This document shows, piece by piece, positions 54,885 through 63,501 of a stretch of DNA of 64,000 nucleotides. The position numbers were made by a program, and so were the translations under genes. The notes below the pieces were generated by a model. It searched no databases and was not told the DNA's origin. It saw nothing but the letters and a program-made list of their open reading frames with translations. Source of the stretch: Catellatospora sp. KI3 (GTDB taxonomy: Bacteria; Actinomycetota; Actinomycetes; Mycobacteriales; Micromonosporaceae); contig NZ_JASAMB010000009.1 in assembly GCF_029948125.1 (NCBI RefSeq), forward strand, positions 62,001 through 126,000. Direction: 5' to 3'. Numbering within the stretch: position 1 is the stretch's first letter; each line of letters opens with the position of its first letter.

Positions 54885-55529
54885 TCAGGGGAGGAGGCGG
54901 TGCTCCCAGGCCCAGGCGGCGATCTCGACGCGGTTGCGGGCGCCGAGTTTGGCCTGGACGCTGCCCAGGTGGGTCTTGACCGTGCCCAGCGAGATGAACA
55001 GCTGCGCGGCGATCTCGGCGTTGGTCAGGCCCCGGGCGGTCAGCTTGACCACGTCGAGTTCGCGCGGGGACAGGCCCTGGTCGTCGCCGGTACGGCCGGG
55101 CAGGTGCGGCGTCAGGTGCGCCAGTAGCCGCACCGTGACGGAGGGGCTGATCAGCGAGTCGCCCGACGCGGCCGCCCGCACCGCCTCGACCAGCAGCGCC
55201 GGTCCGGAGTCCTTCAGCAGGAAGCCGCAGGCGCCGTTGCGCAGCGCGGCATGCACGTACTCGTCGAGGTCGAAGGTGGTCACCACGACGACCTTCGGCG
55301 GGTCGGCCACGCCGGGGCCGGCGAGCTGGCGCAGCGCCTCCAGCCCGTCGAGGCGGGGCATCCGGATGTCCATCAGCGCCACGTCGGGCCGGAGGCGGCG
55401 GGCCAGGGCGACCGCTTCGACCCCGTCGGCGGCCTCGCCGACCACCTCCATGTCCGGCTGCGCCCCGATGATCATGCCGAAGCCGGTACGCACCATCGCC
55501 TGGTCATCGGCGATCATCACCCGGATCAC
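54885..55529 (-). CDS. NarL/LuxR-type response regulator
   Basis: The 214-residue regulator has a receiver domain with phospho-acceptor D54 (VALMDIRMPRLDG), acidic pair D8-D9 and a conserved Lys in GFLLKDSGPA. The C-terminal LuxR helix-turn-helix is LSPRELDVVKLTARGLTNAEIAAQLFISLGTVKTHLGSVQAKLGARNRVEIAAWAWEH. GTG 55529 overlaps the stop of the kinase gene (GTGA), so the pair is coupled. It probably activates the divergent ABC transporter operon at 56848. Confidence 0.94.
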   Translation of the reverse strand: MIRVMIADDQAMVRTGFGMIIGAQPDMEVVGEAADGVEAVALARRLRPDVALMDIRMPRLDGLEALRQLAGPGVADPPKVVVVTTFDLDEYVHAALRNGACGFLLKDSGPALLVEAVRAAASGDSLISPSVTVRLLAHLTPHLPGRTGDDQGLSPRELDVVKLTARGLTNAEIAAQLFISLGTVKTHLGSVQAKLGARNRVEIAAWAWEHRLLP

Positions 55530-56701
55530 AGCGCCTCCCGCCAGGTCAGCGGCATCGCCACGTCGACGAGCCAGCCTCGCTCGATACCCGGACCGGCGTT
55601 GATCCGGCCACCGACTGCCCGGACCCGCTCGCCCAGCCCGACCAGCCCGTAACCGCGCTCCCGGGCACCGACCGGGCGCGGCGGGGCGCCGTCGTCGGCC
55701 ACCCGGACGAACAGCCAGCCGGACGCGCGGCGCACCGACACGTCCACTACCCGCGCGTTGACCGCGTGCCGCCGTACGTTGGTCAGCGCCTCCATCACCA
55801 CCCGGTAGGCGCTGGTGGAGACCTCGACCGGCAGGTCGTCCAGCAGCCCGTCGACATGCAGCCGGGCCACCGCGGGGCTGGACTGGTTGAACCGCTCCAG
55901 CAGCGGCGGCAGGTCGCCCGCCCCGGCCAGCGGCGCCAGCGGCGCCTCCGGTTCGCGCAGCACGCTGACCATCCGGCGCATCGACGCCATGGTCTCGGCT
56001 CCGGCCGCCTCGATCTGTTCGAGGGCGACCAGTGCCCGCCGCGGGTCCTGCTCGGCGACGTACCGGGCGCCCTGGGCCTGCACGATGATGCCGGTCACGT
56101 GGTGGGCGATGAAGTCGTGCAGGTCGCGCGCGAACTCGGCGCGCTGGGCCGTGCGGACCTCCTCCAGTGCGCGCCGCCGCCCGGTGTCCATCATCCGCAT
56201 GTACACCCCGGCGGTGCCCACGCCCGCCGCGGCCAGGCCGAGCAGCATCCCGATGATGATCATCCGGTTGTCGGTGCCGCTGCGCAGCGGCAGCAGCGTC
56301 ACGGCGGCGCCCAGGCCCAGCACGGCCCACGGCGCGGTCCAGGCCGGTGCCAGCCGAGCGGTGACGTACAGCAGCCCCAGCAGCCCGGCCGTCTCGGCCA
56401 GCCCCCAGCTGCCGCCGCCGTAATCGGCGGACCGGCCGAGCAGGAAGAGCAGCCCGGTGACGCCGAGTGACCCCACCGCGCCGAGCAGCGCGAACCACGG
56501 CAGCGGCTTCGAGCCGGGTCGGTGCGGGAACAGCCAGATCGCGGCGACGGCCAGGGCGGGCAGCACCCGGACCAGGATGTGCAGCGGGTTCTCGTACAGC
56601 ATGCCGTAGCGCAGGTCGATTAGGCCGAGCACGGCGAGGCCGACGAAGGCGGCGAACCGGCCCAGGAGCAGCAGCCAGGGGCGCAGGGGGGAGGTCGTCA
56701 T
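55526..56701 (-). CDS. two-component sensor histidine kinase (HisKA_3)
   Basis: The 391-residue kinase has five or six membrane helices in residues 8-165 and almost no extracytoplasmic domain, which suggests sensing within the membrane. The phospho-acceptor H195 lies in FARDLHDFIAHHVTGI and the ATP-binding domain in VVMEALTNVRRHA and RERGYGLVGLGERVRAVGG. ATG 56701 is preferred. The frame continues to 56827 without a ribosome site. It is coupled to the response regulator and diverges from the FtsX-type ABC transporter, a common pairing for peptide-antibiotic detection. Confidence 0.93.
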   Translation of the reverse strand: MTTSPLRPWLLLLGRFAAFVGLAVLGLIDLRYGMLYENPLHILVRVLPALAVAAIWLFPHRPGSKPLPWFALLGAVGSLGVTGLLFLLGRSADYGGGSWGLAETAGLLGLLYVTARLAPAWTAPWAVLGLGAAVTLLPLRSGTDNRMIIIGMLLGLAAAGVGTAGVYMRMMDTGRRRALEEVRTAQRAEFARDLHDFIAHHVTGIIVQAQGARYVAEQDPRRALVALEQIEAAGAETMASMRRMVSVLREPEAPLAPLAGAGDLPPLLERFNQSSPAVARLHVDGLLDDLPVEVSTSAYRVVMEALTNVRRHAVNARVVDVSVRRASGWLFVRVADDGAPPRPVGARERGYGLVGLGERVRAVGGRINAGPGIERGWLVDVAMPLTWREAL

Positions 56702-56847
56702 CGTCACCCAGGGTAGCCACTGGTCGGCGGGGCCGGATCGGCCGAAAGTCATAGCGGCGCCGGGGGCGAACCCCGCCCGCGGCCGATGCGCCGGGCACCG
56801 CCGCCACGGCAGGCTCTGCTGCGACAACGGGCTTCCCTGGAGGACAT

Positions 56848-57606
56848 GTGAGTACGCAGCAAACCGTCACCACACCGGTCTACGCGGTGGCCGCGGTGGA
56901 CCTGGTCAAGGTGTACGGCCGCGGCGACGCCGCGGTGCGCGCCCTGGACGGCGTGACGGTCGGCTTCACCCGGGCCGAGTTCACAGCGATCATGGGCCCG
57001 TCCGGGTCCGGCAAGTCGACGCTGATGCACTGCCTGGCCGGGCTGGACAACGCGACCTCGGGGCAGGCGCTGCTCGGCGGGACGGACCTCACCCGGCTCG
57101 ACGACCGGGTGCTGACCAAGGTCCGGCGGGAGCGGATCGGCTTCGTCTTCCAGTCGTTCAACCTGCTGCCGCAGCTCAGCGCGGTACGCAACATCACCCT
57201 GCCGCTGGACCTGGCCGGGCGCAGGCCGGAGCCGGAGCTGTTCGACTACCTGGTCAGCTCGCTGGGGCTGGGGGACCGGCTCGACCACCGGCCCAGCGAG
57301 CTGTCCGGCGGGCAGCAGCAGCGGGTGGCGCTGGCCCGGGCGCTGGTGTCGCGGCCGGAGGTGGTCTTCGCCGACGAGCCGACCGGCAACCTCGACTCGG
57401 CCTCCGGCGCGCAGGTGCTGGCGCTGCTGCGCGACGCGGTGCGCGACCTCGGCCAGACGGTCGTCATGGTCACCCACGATCCGACCGCCGCCGCGTACGC
57501 CGACCGGGTCGTGCTGCTGGCCGACGGGCGGGTCGCCGGTGACCTGGACCGGCCCGAGCGGGCCGCCATCGTCGAGGCGCTGGCGCAGCAGGCGGTGCCG
57601 CGATGA
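56848..57606 (+). CDS. ABC transporter ATP-binding protein (LolD/MacB-type)
   Basis: The 252-residue ATPase has Walker A GPSGSGKST, signature LSGGQQQRVALARAL, Walker B VVFADEPTGNLD and H-loop VTHDPTAAAYADR. The sequence class is the MacB/LolD family that powers FtsX-type permeases. GTG 56848 follows GGAGGAC; an ATG two bases earlier is out of frame. It overlaps the permease gene by 4 bp (ATGA). With the divergent two-component system it looks like an antimicrobial-peptide sensing or resistance module. Confidence 0.95.
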   Translation: MSTQQTVTTPVYAVAAVDLVKVYGRGDAAVRALDGVTVGFTRAEFTAIMGPSGSGKSTLMHCLAGLDNATSGQALLGGTDLTRLDDRVLTKVRRERIGFVFQSFNLLPQLSAVRNITLPLDLAGRRPEPELFDYLVSSLGLGDRLDHRPSELSGGQQQRVALARALVSRPEVVFADEPTGNLDSASGAQVLALLRDAVRDLGQTVVMVTHDPTAAAYADRVVLLADGRVAGDLDRPERAAIVEALAQQAVPR

Positions 57607-60164
57607 ACCGGGCGGTGCTGCGTACGCAGCTGGCCGGGGTGGCCCGGCACCCGGCCCGGCTGCTGCTCACCGGGCTGGCCGTGCTCGTCGCCTCGTTCAC
57701 GGTCTGCGCCACGATGCTGGCCCAGCAGGTCACCGAGCGCACCCTGCTGCAGAACCTGAGCGGCACGCCGGAGCAGGTCGCGTTCGTGCTGGGCGACGAG
57801 TCGGCCCCGGCGCCCGCGCACGCCCTGGACCGGGTCCGGGCGGTGCCGGGCGTGGCCGAGGCGGTGGGCAGGTTCGCCACCGGGGTGCAGCTGGGCACCG
57901 GGTCGTCCGGCGCGTACCTGCAGGTGACCGCCGATCCGGGCACCGGCCCGCTGGCGCTGGCCCGTGCGGTCGAGGGGCGGTATCCGCAGGCCCGGTACGA
58001 GATCGCGATCACGCCGCGTACCGCCGACCGGATGAGCCTGGCCGTTGGCTCGGTCCTGCACGCCCGGACGGGTCCGGACACGCCGCCGGTGGACCTGACC
58101 GTGACCGGCGTCGTGGAGACGCCGTACGACTTCGGCGCCCAGTCGTACGCGCTGGCGGAGACCGTGGTCGCGCTGGCGCCCGACGGCCCGAGCGGCCGGA
58201 TCGAGGTGCGGCTGGCCGACGGGGCGTCGGAGTCCGAGGTGCGGTTGCGGCTGCGGCAGGTGCTCGACAGCGAACCCCGCCCGACCATGTCCGACGGGCA
58301 GCAGCTGCCGGTCCCGGGCCTGCGCACCGGCGCCGAGGTACGCGCCGAGGAGGCGGTCGCCGCGCTGGAGGAGATCGAGACGATCTTCACGTTCGTGTCC
58401 GTCTTCGTGGCCGTCGCCGTGATCGCCGCCGCGCTGGTAGTCGCCTCCACCTTCCGGATCGTGTTCGCCCAGCGCACCCGGCAGCTCGCCCTGCTGCGCG
58501 CGATCGGCGCCGGCCGGGGCGGCATCGCCCGGGCGCTGGCCGTCGAGGGCGCGGTCACCGGCCTGGTCGCCAGCGTCACCGGGGTCCTGGCCGCGTTCGC
58601 CGTCGGCTACGGCCTGCCGCCGCTGTCCGGGCTGTTCGGCGCGCAGATCCTGGGGCCCGGCACGCCTCCGCCCGCCGCGCTGGCCGTGGTCGCGGGCGCG
58701 GTGCTGCTGACCGTCGGCGCGGTGCTGGCCCCGGCGCGCTCGGCCGCCCGCGTCGCCCCGCTGGCCGCCCTGCGGACGGCGCAGACCACCGCGTCCCGGC
58801 GCGACATCGGGGTGCTGCGGTTGGGGGCCGGACTGCTGCTCGCCGCCGCGGCGGTCGGGTCGGCGCTGCTCGTGGGGACGATGCTGCCGGGCCGGGACCC
58901 GGAGAACTACGACCCGATGCCGGTACTGCTCGGCGTCGTGGCCTCCGGCCTGCTGGCGTTCCTCGCCCTGATGCTGCTGGGCCCGCTGCTGGTACGCCCG
59001 GTGCTGTGGATCGTCGGGTGGCCGCTGCGCCGCCTCGGCCCGGTCGGGCGGCTGGCCGTCGGCGGCATCGGCGGGGCGCCGCGCCGCGCCGCCGCGATCT
59101 CGGTCGTCGTCGCCCTCGGCGTGACCCTGATCGCCGGGGTCCTGGTCGGCAGCGCGTCGATCCAGGTCCTGGCCGACCGGGAGATGGCCCTGTCCACCCC
59201 CGCCGACTTCGAGGTCACCGCCGACGGGCAGCCGATCCCGGCGGCCGTGGCCGACCAGGTCCGGTCCCGCCCCGAGCTGGCGCACACCGCCGGGTACCGG
59301 CGCCTGGACGAGCTGCACGTCGACGCCGACCCGCAGGCCGCGTACGACGCCAACGACCTCGACCTGGCCGCGCTGCCCGCGCTGGGCGGAGTCGACGTCG
59401 AGGCCGGGTCGCTGGCCGAGGCGGGGCCGGGCCGGGTGGTGCTGGCCGGGTACCTCGCCGACATCCTGGGCAAGCACTCGGGCGACCAGCTCACGCTGTC
59501 CCGGGAGGGCCGCAGCGTGCAGGTGAAGGTGGTCGCGGTCCTGCCCGGAGCGGCCCCGCTGCACTCGTCGATGATCCTCGACCGGACCGACCTGGACCGG
59601 CTCGGCGCGGCGGCCGGGTTCACCGGCATCCTGGCCGACGCGGCCCGACCCGGTGAGGACGGCCGCACCGCCGGTCAGCAGGCCCTGCACCGGATCGCCG
59701 CCGACAGCGGCGGGCTGGGGGTCGTGGTGCTTGCCGACGAGCGCGACGCGCACCAGGACGTGCTAAACGCGGTGCTCTGGATCGCGATCGGCCTGGTCGG
59801 GCTCACCGTCCTGATCGCCGTGGTCGGGGTCGGGGCGACCACCGCGCTGTCGGTGGTGGAGCGCATCCGGGAGTCGGGGCTGCTGCGGGCGGTGGGCCTG
59901 TCCCGGGCCGGGCTGCGGACCATGCTGACGACCGAGTCGGGGCTGTACGGCGTCCTCGGGGCGGTCCTCGGGCTGCTGCTCGGGGTGCCGTACGCGTGGC
60001 TGGCGGTGCGGGCGCTGGGCCTGGACGCGCCGCTGGTGCTGCCGGTGCCCGCCCTGGCCGGACTGTTCGCGGCCCTGGTCGCGCTCACCGCCCTGGCCGG
60101 GGTGCTGCCCGCCCGGCGCGCGTCACGGGTCAGCCCGGTCACCGCCCTGGGCGCCGACGACTGA
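57603..60164 (+). CDS. FtsX-like ABC transporter permease
   Basis: The 853-residue permease has a first helix near residues 17-40 (LLLTGLAVLVASFTVCATMLAQQ), a large extracytoplasmic domain, three FtsX helices (about 260-370), a second cluster with a further extracytoplasmic domain (about 500-690), and three C-terminal FtsX helices ending in LPARRASRVSPVTALGADD. This double-FtsX architecture is typical of MacB-like or BceB-like systems that act on membrane-embedded substrates by mechanotransmission. ATG 57603 overlaps the ATPase stop. It is followed by a structured repeat. Confidence 0.94.
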   Translation: MNRAVLRTQLAGVARHPARLLLTGLAVLVASFTVCATMLAQQVTERTLLQNLSGTPEQVAFVLGDESAPAPAHALDRVRAVPGVAEAVGRFATGVQLGTGSSGAYLQVTADPGTGPLALARAVEGRYPQARYEIAITPRTADRMSLAVGSVLHARTGPDTPPVDLTVTGVVETPYDFGAQSYALAETVVALAPDGPSGRIEVRLADGASESEVRLRLRQVLDSEPRPTMSDGQQLPVPGLRTGAEVRAEEAVAALEEIETIFTFVSVFVAVAVIAAALVVASTFRIVFAQRTRQLALLRAIGAGRGGIARALAVEGAVTGLVASVTGVLAAFAVGYGLPPLSGLFGAQILGPGTPPPAALAVVAGAVLLTVGAVLAPARSAARVAPLAALRTAQTTASRRDIGVLRLGAGLLLAAAAVGSALLVGTMLPGRDPENYDPMPVLLGVVASGLLAFLALMLLGPLLVRPVLWIVGWPLRRLGPVGRLAVGGIGGAPRRAAAISVVVALGVTLIAGVLVGSASIQVLADREMALSTPADFEVTADGQPIPAAVADQVRSRPELAHTAGYRRLDELHVDADPQAAYDANDLDLAALPALGGVDVEAGSLAEAGPGRVVLAGYLADILGKHSGDQLTLSREGRSVQVKVVAVLPGAAPLHSSMILDRTDLDRLGAAAGFTGILADAARPGEDGRTAGQQALHRIAADSGGLGVVVLADERDAHQDVLNAVLWIAIGLVGLTVLIAVVGVGATTALSVVERIRESGLLRAVGLSRAGLRTMLTTESGLYGVLGAVLGLLLGVPYAWLAVRALGLDAPLVLPVPALAGLFAALVALTALAGVLPARRASRVSPVTALGADD

Positions 60165-60489
60165 GCGCCGCCCCACCGGCTCGGCGTCACCGCCGCGGCG
60201 ACGTTGGGAAGGGTCCCTTCCACATCGGATTCCGATAAGAAGGGACCCGTCCTTTCGTGCGGGTAGGTTCGGCCGTCGCCGCTTGTCGATGTTCGTCGTC
60301 TATGGACAGAATGTGCTCTGGCGGCTGACCGGTTGACCGCGAACGGCGATCTTGCTGGGTTTGTGGGCGAAGATCGCGGCCCGTGGCAGAATTCGCGGCA
60401 GCCCGGGGGGCGGGGGAGCGCGCAGGTGTCGAGGGCACTTCTCGACCGGCGGCGGCGCCCCTCAGGCAGAGAAGGGGAGGCGCGGGTCG
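60165..60489. other. 325-bp spacer before the oxygenase pair
   Basis: It contains repeat family 2 copy 1, then an inverted GCGATCTT (60346-60353)/AAGATCGC (60370-60377) pair with a 16-base loop, then a G-rich stretch and the ribosome site AGGGGAGG at about 60472. No gene is seen. The promoter of the oxygenase pair should lie here but no clear hexamers stand out. Confidence 0.5.
60203..60257 (+). repeat. structured repeat family 2, copy 1
   Basis: It begins GTTGGGAAGGGTCCCTTC, continues with the palindrome ATCGGATTCCGAT (60224-60236) and ends with GAAGGGACCC. Left and right GGG(T/A)CCC words can pair, so the element folds as a long hairpin with palindromic modules. It follows the permease stop by 39 bp and may terminate that operon. 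The second copy is at 63443. Confidence 0.88.
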
Positions 60490-61719
60490 ATGCGCACAGC
60501 AGCACGGGCGGAAGCCCGCCTCGATGACGCGGGCAGCATCCTGGTCGCGCCACCGGCGCTGCGGGACCATGACCTGACCAGGGACTTCTTCGGGCGCGTG
60601 ATCACTCCGGAGGAACTTTCCTCCGGTGTGCCCGGGGTCGCCGGCAAGACCGTCTACCTGTGCGGAGACGTGTCGGCGGTGCGCGGCCGCGAACTCGACG
60701 GGGCCGCGAGGGTCTTCGTCGTCAGGGAGCTGTCACAGGGTCACGACGAGGTCGCGGGTGGACCTCGGCCGGTCGTGGACATCGGCCGGGTCCCTGTGCG
60801 CGTACACGGCGTGGGCGTGTACTACCGGCGCTTCTTCGACCGCGGCTCCGATCGCTTCGACCGGATCTGTGCGGAGCACACCTTCCAGTCCCTCACGGAG
60901 TCGACCAAGCCCGGTACGTCCCACCGCACCGGAATCTATCTGACCCCCGTCACGCAGGACCGCGACGAACTGCACTTCCGCCTGCTCCGGTGCTCCACGA
61001 ACCTGTCCGGGCCGACCGAGAACTTCCGGGCGACGGACACCGGCATCGTGGACGCCCTGAACGTCGAGGCGGCCGCTGTCTTCCGGAACCACGCACCGCT
61101 GAACCACGTGCTTGCGCAGGTCTACCGCAACACCCCGACCACCGCCGAGCGCAAGCAGGCCAAGGCGAAGATCTCGGCGCATGCCGACAAGACCAAGGAC
61201 ATGCCCGCCGACGGCATCATGGCCTTCTGCACCTTCTACGACGGTATCGAGCAGCTGCGCCCCATGGCCGACGACGCCTTCGACCACGGTGCGAACGGTG
61301 TCAGCGGCCTCACCAGGCTCCACTTCCGCCTCAAGGAGCCGGCCGGAGAACCTGCCGGACAGGCGCTCCCGCTCCAGTTCACCCTGACCCTGTATCCCGA
61401 CTCCGTGTTCTTCATGCCGCTGTCCACCAACCGGCTGTACACGCACGAGATCCGGCCTTCGACGCTGGACGCCCGCCTGCTCCCGACCCGCCTGGGGTAC
61501 GTGGTCCGCTGCTCCGGCGCCGAAGCCGTGCACAAGGACGGCCGGACGTTCCTCAAGCGGAGCGGCGACCTGGTCGAGCTGGGACCGCCCACCCCCGAGG
61601 GCATGGACGAGCTGCGCAGGCTGTACGCCGAGGAGAACCGGACCCGAGCCGTCGTCGACTACGGCGACGGGTTCCGCTTCAGCATGAACGCGGGAGACTA
61701 CCGTGCCCCCCGAATCTAG
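60490..61719 (+). CDS. AlkB-fold 2OG-Fe(II) oxygenase-like protein, large member of pair
   Basis: The 409-residue protein of unknown family shows a 2-oxoglutarate/iron oxygenase pattern in its second half. H231-x-D233 in KAKISAHADKTKD is followed by strands (GIMAFCTFY; PLQFTLTLYPDSVFFMPLSTNRLYTHEI with H319), then R340 in RLGYVVRCS for the 2OG carboxylate. HxD...H...R is the complete metal and cosubstrate set of the AlkB-like class. The first 200 residues (LTRDFFGRVITPEEL; VHGVGVYYRRFFDRG) are an extra domain that could hold a substrate. ATG 60490 has AGGGGAGG nine bases upstream. It overlaps the next oxygenase gene by 17 bp. Confidence 0.72.
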   Translation: MRTAARAEARLDDAGSILVAPPALRDHDLTRDFFGRVITPEELSSGVPGVAGKTVYLCGDVSAVRGRELDGAARVFVVRELSQGHDEVAGGPRPVVDIGRVPVRVHGVGVYYRRFFDRGSDRFDRICAEHTFQSLTESTKPGTSHRTGIYLTPVTQDRDELHFRLLRCSTNLSGPTENFRATDTGIVDALNVEAAAVFRNHAPLNHVLAQVYRNTPTTAERKQAKAKISAHADKTKDMPADGIMAFCTFYDGIEQLRPMADDAFDHGANGVSGLTRLHFRLKEPAGEPAGQALPLQFTLTLYPDSVFFMPLSTNRLYTHEIRPSTLDARLLPTRLGYVVRCSGAEAVHKDGRTFLKRSGDLVELGPPTPEGMDELRRLYAEENRTRAVVDYGDGFRFSMNAGDYRAPRI

Positions 61720-62473
61720 CCTGCCGGACGAAGTCCGCTCCTACGCACTGGTCGCCGCCGCCGATCTCTTCGAAGAGCTGTTCGCCTCGGCCCGGTTCGA
61801 GGACCTGGGGAAAGGCAGACTCGGGACCACAGTGGTCAAGTGCGACGAGACGGGTGGCATACCGCTGGTGCGGACGACCACCCGCTACCGCACCCCGGCG
61901 CAGCACTTCCAGCCCGTGCACGAGCGGCTGGCGCGACAGATCCAGGAGCGGGCGGAGTTGTCCGTCGGCTTCGACAACGCCCTCGTCGAGTGCTACACGA
62001 ACGCCTACCGGACCATGGGCAGCCACTCCGACCAGGCTCTCGACCTGGCGGACGGGTCGTTCATCGCCGTCTTCTCCTGCTACCGGCACCCCGGCGTGAG
62101 CCAGCCTCGGAAGCTGGTCTTCGAATCGAAGGAGCCCGGGGCCGACGGTTTCGAGATCCCGCTGGCGCACCACGGTGTCGTCGTGTTCTCCGTCGCCACG
62201 AATCGACTGCTCAGGCACAGGATCGTGCTGGACGCGGCCGGCCCGGTGCCCGACAACCAGTGGCTGGGCGTGACCTTCCGTACGTCGAAGACCTTCGTGC
62301 GGTTCCGGGACGGGGACGCGTACCTCCCGGACGGTGCGCGCCTTCTGCTGGCCGATGAGGAGCAGCGGGCCGAGTTCTACCGACTGCGGCGCCGGGAGAA
62401 CCAGGAGACGGACTTCGCCTACCCCCTCCTGACGTACACGGTCAGCGGGAGTGATCTGGTGCCGCCCGTCTGA
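61703..62473 (+). CDS. AlkB-like 2OG-Fe(II) oxygenase, small member of pair
   Basis: The 256-residue protein matches the AlkB plan closely: NALVECYTNAYRTMGSHSDQ gives H108-x-D110, the strand IAVFSCYRHPG, GVVVFSVATNRLLRHRIVL gives the distal H172, and WLGVTFRTSKTFVRF gives R193. All residues for iron and 2-oxoglutarate are present, so it should be active. AlkB-like enzymes hydroxylate or demethylate nucleic acids, proteins or small molecules; the substrate here is unknown. It starts inside the end of the upstream oxygenase gene (17-bp overlap), which implies coupled synthesis. Its N-terminal 90 residues are unlike those of its partner. Confidence 0.78.
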   Translation: MPPESSLPDEVRSYALVAAADLFEELFASARFEDLGKGRLGTTVVKCDETGGIPLVRTTTRYRTPAQHFQPVHERLARQIQERAELSVGFDNALVECYTNAYRTMGSHSDQALDLADGSFIAVFSCYRHPGVSQPRKLVFESKEPGADGFEIPLAHHGVVVFSVATNRLLRHRIVLDAAGPVPDNQWLGVTFRTSKTFVRFRDGDAYLPDGARLLLADEEQRAEFYRLRRRENQETDFAYPLLTYTVSGSDLVPPV

Positions 62474-62487
62474 CGACTGCGGGGAGC

Positions 62488-63019
62488 GTGGTCAGTAGGG
62501 TCCGCAGCGTGGCGGTGGAACTTGACGGGGTACGGGAAGTGGCGGCGCGGATCGCCGGTGAGTTGACCGCCGCCGGGGCCGTGGCGGTGGTGCTGGTCGG
62601 CAGTGTGGCGCGCGGTGACGCCCGGCCGACCTCGGACGTCGACCTGGTGGCGGTGGGCGAGGGGCCGGAGTACCGGTTGTCGGTCCGCGACGGGCGGCAG
62701 CCCCCGCGCCGCGGCGGTGATGCGCGGCCTGCTCGCGGTGCGGCTGGCCACGATCCTGGCGGTGCACCACCGCCTCCTCTACGACACCGAGAACCGGCTG
62801 TGGGATCTGGTTGCCGAGGCCGAGGGGCCGCAGTGGTCGGCCGCGCAGGACCTGGCCCTCGGCGTCACCCCGGGCACCGGCGGGGCGGCGGACCGGGCCG
62901 CCCTCGACCTCTATGCCGCGACCGCGCGGCGTACGCGGGAGCTGCTCGACGCGGAGCAGTCGGCGGTCGTGCGGCTGGCGCTGGAGACGGCGGGAATCCG
63001 GCAGCTTCCGTTGACATAA
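62488..63019 (+). pseudogene. nucleotidyltransferase gene with internal deletion and frameshift
   Basis: From GTG 62488 the first frame encodes a nucleotidyltransferase head with the active-site motif VLVGSVARGDARPTSDVDLVAV, where Gly-Ser and Asp-x-Asp bind nucleotide and metal. Soon after SVRDGRQ, near 62700, that frame becomes Arg/Pro-rich. A plausible tail continues in another frame from about 62715: MRGLLAVRLATILAVHHRLLYDTENRLWDLVAEAEG to residue IRQLPLT, stop 63019. Full-length relatives that I know have an additional helical region between these parts, so I infer a deletion plus frameshift. It begins 14 bp after the oxygenase stop. Sequencing error is possible but would not explain the missing middle. 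Confidence 0.6.
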
Positions 63020-63041
63020 TCTTAGATATAGCATTCGATCT
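63011..63041 (+). promoter_or_regulatory. AT-rich promoter immediately before the small secreted protein
   Basis: TTGACA at 63011-63016 is followed 17 bases later by TTCGAT (63034-63039), three bases before ATG 63042. The stretch is far more AT-rich than its surroundings and there is no ribosome site, so transcription may begin at the start codon or the true -10 lies elsewhere in TTAGATATAG. Confidence 0.5.
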
Positions 63042-63431
63042 ATGCGAAAGATTGCTCTCTTCTTTGCCGCTATTGCCGCGACGGTGCTGATGGGCGCCAC
63101 TCCGGCCGCGGCCGCGACCGGCTGGACCTTCCACAGCGGCGGGTACGACGACGACGTCTTCTTCCAGACGCCGTGCATGGACAAGGGCGCGCAGCTGCTG
63201 GCGGCCGGCACCATCGCCGACTACCAGTGCCGGGTCAACTCCGGCAACGGCTACTGGGACCTGTTCGTCGTCAGCGGCACGTGGACCTACCGCAGCGCCC
63301 ACTACAACAACGACGTCTTCGGCACCGCCTGCGCCAACGCCGGTCAGGCGCTGATCGCCAACGGCACCATCACCACGTACCAGTGCCGCTTCGACAACAC
63401 CAACTACGTCAAGCTCTGGGTCATCGTCTAA
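63042..63431 (+). CDS. small secreted protein with internal duplication (129 aa)
   Basis: It has a clear signal peptide (RKIALFFAAIAATVLMGATPAAAA). The mature part is two tandem units of about 50 residues: WTFHSGGYDDDVFFQTPCMDKGAQLLAAGTIADYQCR and WTYRSAHYNNDVFGTACANAGQALIANGTITTYQCR, each with two Cys. I do not recognise the family. It may be a small extracellular inhibitor, lectin or toxin-like protein stabilised by disulfides. The 5' end is AT-rich, with no ribosome site, suggesting leaderless expression and perhaps foreign origin. Confidence 0.82.
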   Translation: MRKIALFFAAIAATVLMGATPAAAATGWTFHSGGYDDDVFFQTPCMDKGAQLLAAGTIADYQCRVNSGNGYWDLFVVSGTWTYRSAHYNNDVFGTACANAGQALIANGTITTYQCRFDNTNYVKLWVIV

Positions 63432-63442
63432 CCCTCGCCGGA

Positions 63443-63495
63443 GTTGGGAAGGGACCCTTCTACATCGGATTCCGATAAGAAGGGTCCCTTCCTTG
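63443..63495 (+). repeat. structured repeat family 2, copy 2
   Basis: It is nearly identical to the copy at 60203 and in the same orientation, but the left word is GGGACCC and the right word GGGTCCC, the reverse of the first copy. Pairing is therefore kept in both. It lies between the convergent small-secreted and MFS genes. Confidence 0.88.
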
Positions 63496-63501
63496 CGCGG
63501 G

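Follow-up and report, generated by a model that had tools for sequence, protein, structure and literature searches.

We analysed a window of 64,000 nucleotides from the actinomycete Catellatospora sp. KI3 (contig NZ_JASAMB010000009.1, positions 62,001 to 126,000 of the forward strand) and studied two overlapping genes on its plus strand, here called P1 and P2. The open reading frame (ORF) of P1 extends from 60490 to 61719 and encodes 409 amino acids from an ATG start. The P2 ORF extends from 61703 to 62473 and encodes 256 amino acids from a GTG start that lies inside P1, in the +1 frame relative to P1. An initial annotation had described the two products as AlkB-fold, Fe(II)- and 2-oxoglutarate (2OG)-dependent oxygenases with a 17-bp gene overlap, and we confirmed the coordinates, the common strand and the overlap. 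The features of the locus, in window coordinates, are as follows.

60472..60480, + strand: Shine-Dalgarno-like AAGGGGAGG, 9 nt ahead of the P1 start, read from the sequence
60490..61719, + strand: P1, N-terminal extension and AlkB-like domain, for which an Fe(II)/2OG site with both arginines is predicted (from the ORF, residue conservation and profile homology)
60490..60843, + strand: P1 residues 1-118, the N-terminal extension, preceding the part homologous to P2
60847..61710, + strand: P1 residues 120-407, homologous to P2 residues 20-255
61180..61188, + strand: P1 H231-A-D233, predicted metal ligands
61444..61446, + strand: P1 H319, predicted third metal ligand
61489..61509, + strand: P1 R334-LGYVV-R340, the RxxxxxR pair of AlkB with both Arg present
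61692..61696, + strand: GGGAG, predicted ribosome-binding site of P2 within the coding sequence of P1 (Gly402 codon GGA)
61703..61705, + strand: GTG start codon of P2 within P1
61703..61719, + strand: 17-bp overlap of P1 and P2
61703..62473, + strand: P2, putative AlkB-fold partner
61988..61996, + strand: P2 E96-x-Y98, Glu at the Asn position of AlkB enzymes (2OG C1-carboxylate contact), Tyr kept
62024..62032, + strand: P2 H108-S-D110, predicted metal ligands
62216..62218, + strand: P2 H172, predicted third metal ligand
62261..62281, + strand: P2 W187-LGVTF-R193, Trp at the position of the 2OG-clamping Arg, second Arg kept

We consider it probable that P1 and P2 each supply one domain of a two-domain AlkB-like protein and work one-to-one as a single oxygenase, with P1 as the 2OG-dependent catalyst and P2 as its partner. 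The site residues were followed through length-filtered translations of related loci together with listed homologues (196 P1 rows, 190 of them distinct, and 186 P2 rows), and through 117 homologues, described below, in which both halves are fused in one chain. The HxD...H iron triad was present in both halves in all split and fused rows. H231, D233, H319 and R340 were found in 196/196 P1 rows (190 distinct) and H108, D110, H172 and R193 in 186/186 P2 rows, and both triads, P1 R340 and P2 R193 were kept in 117/117 fused homologues, so that all eight residues picked out by the initial annotation are fixed in the rows examined. As the iron ligands of P2 are invariant in all rows, its iron site seems to be kept in use.

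The two halves differ in the residues expected to hold 2OG. In AlkB, the two 2OG carboxylates are held by Arg204 and Arg210 (PMC6943663). In ALKBH5 the C5-carboxylate is bound by Arg277 and Tyr195 and the C1-carboxylate by Asn193, and a role in oxygen activation, common to isopenicillin N synthase, has been proposed for Arg283 (PMC3985658). Q210 (Gln for Asn), Y212, R334 and R340 were present in 196/196 P1 rows, with R334, at the 2OG-clamping position, also in 117/117 fused proteins; on sequence, P1 has what a 2OG oxygenase needs. P2 carried W187 at the clamp position and E96 at the Asn position in all 186 split rows and all 117 fused proteins, and Y98 in 185/186 and 117/117, respectively. Profile alignment with hhalign placed W187 of P2 on R334 of P1 in both alignments made. 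P2 residue 197, the last one aligned, fell on AlkB 214 and on ABH2 258, which puts W187 on AlkB 204 if the stretch between is free of gaps. Thus, P2 lacks the clamping Arg on strand VIII (AlkB Arg204, ALKBH5 Arg277) that is present in P1, whereas the second Arg near the iron (AlkB Arg210, ALKBH5 Arg283) is matched by R340 of P1 and R193 of P2 in every row. The earlier statement that both sites are intact was wrong for P2, as the second Arg of RxxxxxR had been counted in both proteins and the loss of the first one was overlooked. That the clamp is replaced while the iron ligands are unchanged suggests a function of the second iron site other than ordinary 2OG chemistry.

A different explanation is that both halves are active 2OG oxygenases that act consecutively on one substrate, with P2 holding 2OG by, for example, the invariant R136 or R57. 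The complete set of H108, D110, H172 and R193 and the nearly invariant Y98 would fit this, as would R57 and R136, which are conserved in at least 98.5% of the split and fused sequences combined. A moved clamp is conceivable, since in most JmjC enzymes the C5-carboxylate is bound from strand IV, not VIII, by a Lys (PMC3985658). However, the clamp position is Trp and the C1 contact Glu without exception, and in the alignment ABH2, with a normal clamp, also has Arg at the position of R136, so that R136 need not be a clamp. We regard two consecutive 2OG oxygenases as rather unlikely.

The homology of P1 and P2 is clear from their profiles. In BLASTP the match was weak (23% over 226 columns), but profile-profile comparison with 14 rows each gave a probability of 95.2% (E 2.9e-8), which increased to 97.1% (E 6e-11) with a wider split and fused set, aligning P1 120-407 with P2 20-255. 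The identity is 22-24% in the two profile alignments. The match spans the oxygenase core and continues into a C-terminal tail common to both proteins, and about 118 additional N-terminal residues of P1 precede it. The different N-terminal domains noted initially are, therefore, the extra residues of P1; P2 has no separate domain of its own. Against Pfam, P2 gave a bare match to PF13532 (31.8 bits against a cut-off of 31.2) and P1 matched no model at E 1. Against PDB sequences, the P1 profile gave nothing meaningful (best E 0.14) and the P2 profile matched ABH2 only at E 0.034. The predicted model of P2 has the AlkB-type double-stranded beta-helix fold. This fold had been named as one of the features on which the proposal depends, and for P1, with a model of low confidence, it may be expected from the profile homology to P2. 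In the 8.2 Mb genome, P1 and P2 each match only themselves. A separate AlkB-like gene (L001) with RxxxxxR lies elsewhere in the same genome and, read by eye, encodes Cys at the Asn position.

Single-chain homologues were searched among proteins of 366-1164 amino acids, and at least 202 with a P2-like domain were found among 7999 scored candidates; the counts given here cover the 120 listed of these 202. In 117 of the 120, most of P1 stands ahead of P2 in one chain without a linker, and the other three begin inside P1. Named sources include Nannocystis, Sorangium, Pseudonocardia, a Pseudomonadales metagenome-assembled genome (MAG) and the dinoflagellate Polarella glacialis. Further sequences come from MMETSP and EukProt transcripts, of which seven were checked singly and contained both halves. 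The 117 fused proteins are 58-69% identical to the joined proteins of the window. Their junction, from P1 Y404 to P2 S13, has 14 residues in 104/117 and 15 in 13/117, and reading through the overlap of the window with one base skipped also gives 14 residues. In a tree, all 98 split rows (89 distinct) lie on one side of a single branch with support 1.0. The halves were used to root each other in three random samples of 25 split and 35 fused sequences each, which placed the root among the fused forms in 4/6 rootings and on the split/fused branch in 2/6, with weak support. The single branch and the rootings suggest one change of state, perhaps in the direction from fused to split. The fused proteins from Polarella, MMETSP and EukProt (P0284, P0251 and P0313) have, by eye, a hydrophobic N-terminal stretch, as if for membrane anchoring or organelle targeting.

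Related split loci were collected from GTDB genomes, and the best 80 of 168 confirmed relatives were compared. The overlap is exactly 17 bp in 74 of these 80, and the P1 stop lies 12 nt further on in 3/80. When the overlap was realigned in 98 loci, an NTG start of P2 was found at the same place in all of them (TTG 73, GTG 20, ATG 4, CTG 1), or in 89/89 after removal of nine duplicates. The T of the start is the third base of P1 codon 405; it is invariant (98/98). Over all codons of these genes T makes up 7.4% of the third bases, and no other column among the 409 of P1 exceeds 78% T. The Gly402 codon is GGA in 85 and GGG in 12 of the 98 loci (one or the other in 88 of the 89 distinct loci), although GGA makes up 14.4% of Gly codons in the same genes, and its GGA share is the highest among 19 Gly columns. 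With the fixed G that follows, this gives GG(A/G)G, ending six bases ahead of the P2 start, in 97/98. Relatedness inflates such codon counts, and the other columns of the same alignment serve as the control. The codon bias shows selection on the P2 start and on a Shine-Dalgarno-like site inside P1. Unusual third bases were also seen in the 98 loci at P1 columns 145, 150 and 341 and at Gly142 and Gly336 (T up to 78%, GGA up to 71%), which may be a trace of a donor of lower G+C or further RNA signals.

The invariant NTG and GG(A/G)G argue that P2 is most likely made as a separate polypeptide, coupled to P1. Alternatively, programmed +1 ribosomal frameshifting at the proline codon of the overlap could normally join both ORFs into one chain during translation. 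Skipping one base would give the commonest junction length of the fused proteins, and CCN followed by C is present in 83 of the 89 distinct loci. However, CCC followed by C is found in only 62/89, and the start codon and the preceding site fit a separate start, with the NTG left unexplained by frameshifting, which makes this route improbable as the normal one, although a small amount of frameshifted product may be made.

The pairing of the two genes is constant. Conserved adjacency, for which the initial annotation had proposed a genome survey, was found in 80/80 loci, with P2 adjoining P1 on the same strand. By NCBI name these loci belong to Streptomyces (49), Actinomadura (13), Kitasatospora (5), Catenulispora (3), Actinocorallia, Embleya and Streptacidiphilus (2 each) and Virgisporangium and Dactylosporangium (1 each); the remaining two are from an unnamed actinobacterium and a MAG labelled Planctomycetota. 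The split pair of this MAG (locus L036, 10001-11227) shows 70% and 64% identity, and the contig may be mislabelled or the pair may result from a transfer out of Actinomycetota. In one genus, P1 was found in 18 of 246 genomes and P2 in the same 18, adjacent in each. A nineteenth P1 match in that genus (G112, 20.8 bits) was dropped as a chance hit, its locus having no P1 or P2 match better than E 0.60. With G112 dropped, P1 was found in 3 of 296 genomes class-wide. A fused homologue used as query matched 4 of 394 genomes of the class, each time as two separate matches. The three records of a plasmid collection that have P1 also carry P2. In one of them, from Nonomuraea gerenzanensis (NZ_LT559118.1, 6195726-6197584), the P1 match extends to residue 375 and is followed, 9 bases further on, by a P2 match from residue 11; the stretch around the overlap, with the end of P1 and the beginning of P2, is missing, and this looks like a deletion or a damaged copy.

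Three observations argue that P1 and P2 form a one-to-one complex, namely the natural fusions, the unvarying adjacency of the genes and the P2 start embedded in P1. A P1/P2 heterodimer is likely, which supports the coupled pair and probable heterodimer proposed in the initial annotation; the consecutive oxidations also raised there are conceivable. P1 is assigned as the catalyst and P2 as the partner because of the parallel with the fungal TlxI/TlxJ pair discussed below, the full residue complement of P1 and the missing 2OG clamp of P2. In the proposed mechanism, selection on the sequence indicates that the ribosome site and the start codon inside the end of P1 start P2 within the 17-nt overlap, so that P2 would be made beside P1 and probably in step with it. 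The P1 C-terminus would then meet the P2 N-terminus through few joining residues, as it does covalently in the fused form. P1 is predicted to bind Fe(II) via H231, D233 and H319 and 2OG via Q210, Y212, R334 and R340, and to oxidise the substrate. P2 is predicted to bind iron via H108, D110 and H172. It also keeps R193, whose counterpart in AlkB enzymes has a proposed role in oxygen activation, but W187 and E96 should prevent the usual mode of 2OG binding. The most likely roles of P2 are to shape the site of P1, to bind a portion of the substrate, or to act as a sensor of iron or oxygen. For the substrate, our default guess from the fold alone is a nucleic acid or a nucleobase-like metabolite.

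Several points weigh against this reading. The metal ligands of P2 are as invariant as those of P1 across kingdoms, which is more than a dead helper needs. E96 by itself is weak evidence, because L001 has Cys and P1 has Gln at the same position, and R57 or R136 could hold a 2OG carboxylate from another strand, like the Lys of most JmjC enzymes. The proteins were folded as single chains with alignments of close relatives, so that the complex itself is inferred. The P2 model is of moderate confidence (mean predicted local distance difference test score, pLDDT, 63.6; five models 38-64) and the single-chain P1 model reached a pLDDT of 33.6, so that the fold of P1 rests on its profile homology to P2 (E 6e-11). 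Also, no conserved neighbour pointing to a pathway was found among the loci scanned.

A more far-reaching version, which we put forward tentatively, is a two-iron AlkB oxygenase, in which P1 would form a ferryl species via 2OG and P2, with its iron triad and R193 but with Trp and Glu at the 2OG contacts, would catalyse a 2OG-free reaction of O2 with the substrate, like isopenicillin N synthase, giving two different oxidations of one molecule. If true, this would be, to our knowledge and from a literature search, the first 2OG-independent oxidase of the AlkB family and the first two-chain AlkB enzyme, spread through the actinomycetes as a self-contained cassette and present in myxobacteria and dinoflagellates in single-chain form.

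The surroundings of the pair were compared in 83 loci by clustering the products of a simple gene caller. The only clusters common to the loci were P1 (83 loci) and P2 (79 loci), and the next cluster was present in 16 loci at scattered offsets. Immediate neighbours could be taken from 74 of the 80 loci. They lie on the same strand as the pair in 43/74 loci upstream and in 25/74 downstream, and thus no wider operon is apparent. Pfam searches of these neighbours (64/74 downstream and 69/74 upstream, mostly the shortest being omitted) found no family in more than 5/64 or 2/69. The pair has a lower G+C than its flanks in 80/80 loci (medians 65.3% versus 71.9%). In the window, third-position G+C is 0.89-0.90 for P1 and P2 compared to 0.94-0.98 in 11 of 13 called neighbours, the other two having 0.79 and 0.92. 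The lower G+C, the patchy occurrence and the lack of a common neighbour point to horizontal spread of a self-sufficient two-gene unit.

Such a patchy, apparently mobile and self-contained unit of low G+C, with a fold of the nucleic-acid type, could also be an anti-phage defence or anti-defence module that alters nucleic acid. However, neither P1 nor P2 matched PADLOC at E 1 or PHROGs at E 0.01. Among the nearest neighbours, PADLOC gave scattered matches at E 1e-10 (a count made without a baseline) with no listed family in more than two proteins, and thus no repeated defence system. No relative was found by tblastn in 50,697 phage records, nor in viral contigs by two pattern-led scans (P1 and P2 profiles with two short peptide patterns each) or by a DNA pattern for the HxDKTKDM motif of P1. 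In a Foldseek search of BFVD, 2OG proteins of giant viruses (Sylvanvirus, Fadolivirus, Klosneuvirus) ranked first at 14-18% identity, a likeness of fold only. Fused forms also occur in a eukaryote. We regard a role in defence as unlikely. If an AlkB repair gene had simply been duplicated in tandem in recent times, giving redundant copies, the homology of P1 and P2 would be explained, but this is scarcely credible given their 22-24% identity, the differing site residues fixed on each side, the occurrence of the unit from actinomycetes to a dinoflagellate and the AlkB-like gene, L001, that the genome has elsewhere.

Other elements of the window lie close to the pair. A palindromic repeat with the core ACATCGGATTCCGATAAGAAGGG is present once on each side (60178-60257 and 63418-63497), in the same orientation and 3240 bp apart. 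It has no further copy in the window at up to three mismatches and 33 copies in the genome within two mismatches (control 0). It could represent either a repeat dispersed between genes or a small mobile element that marks the ends of an inserted segment. Downstream, 62488-63090 encodes the start of a nucleotidyltransferase (NTP_transf_2, E 2.7e-8, residues 32-63), with a probable continuation in another frame at 62717-63019 without a Pfam match, and this gene looks broken. Positions 63042-63431 encode a small protein, also without a Pfam match, whose N-terminus resembles a signal sequence and which contains two similar repeats of approximately 53 residues; the corresponding direct repeats are at 63123/63282 and 63194/63350. 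Upstream, the translations of 54885-60164 indicate a response regulator and a histidine kinase on the minus strand, and then, on the plus strand, an ABC transporter ATPase and a large permease of the FtsX type. This cluster was not tied to the pair at a fixed place in the other genomes (83 loci).

With P2 as the probable partner of a catalytic P1, the pair represents a large, as yet unnamed family that combines two AlkB-like domains, and in every member examined the 2OG clamp of one of them is replaced. Relatives of P2 are entered as ordinary AlkB proteins in some databases, and the family shows that such annotation calls for caution. The natural split and fused versions also offer a heterodimer that can be made from two genes or from one, with each site separately switchable.

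Known AlkB enzymes have one such domain per chain and are taken to be self-sufficient 2OG oxygenases. P1 and P2 resemble the nucleic-acid 2OG oxygenases AlkB, ALKBH2 and ALKBH3 (PF13532) in the predicted fold of P2, in the HxD...H triad of both halves, and in the RxxxxxR pair, the Tyr and the amide residue (Gln) at the Asn position of P1. They differ from these enzymes in having two homologous domains, an N-terminal extension and a common C-terminal tail, in the loss of the 2OG-clamping Arg in P2, and in that P1 falls below any Pfam model at E 1. A literature search mostly without subscription papers turned up no report of an AlkB protein with this tandem, fused or two-chain arrangement.

TlxI/TlxJ belong to a class of phytanoyl-CoA-hydroxylase-like meroterpenoid enzymes. 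Like P1 and P2, they are a pair of related 2OG-type oxygenases of which one member (TlxI, here P2) is without the 2OG Arg. According to PMC12141560, TlxI/TlxJ and TlxA/TlxC are heterodimeric Fe/2OG oxygenases of fungal talaromyolide biosynthesis, TlxI is without the Arg needed for 2OG, and a loop of TlxI is required for substrate binding. The kcat/Km of TlxJ was 0.02 per min per μM alone and 1.63 with TlxI (PMC12141560). The initial claim that no system with this layout has been described thus holds for the P1/P2 family within our limited search, but not for the principle of a heterodimer with one member lacking the 2OG Arg. The comparison was made by description, and there are differences: TlxI/TlxJ are not AlkB-like and come from a ten-gene cluster, whereas P1/P2 is a bacterial two-gene unit without a cluster, has single-chain versions in other lineages, and keeps the iron triad in its helper.

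Isopenicillin N synthase belongs to the same superfamily and is an oxidase that works with Fe(II) and O2 but without 2OG. P2 is like it in keeping the iron triad and the Arg near the iron, which is shared according to PMC3985658, and the likeness is one of residue pattern only. The single-chain double-AlkB proteins of Nannocystis, Sorangium, Pseudonocardia and Polarella have the same domains in the same order with the same fixed site residues as P1 and P2, and differ in that they form one chain instead of two.

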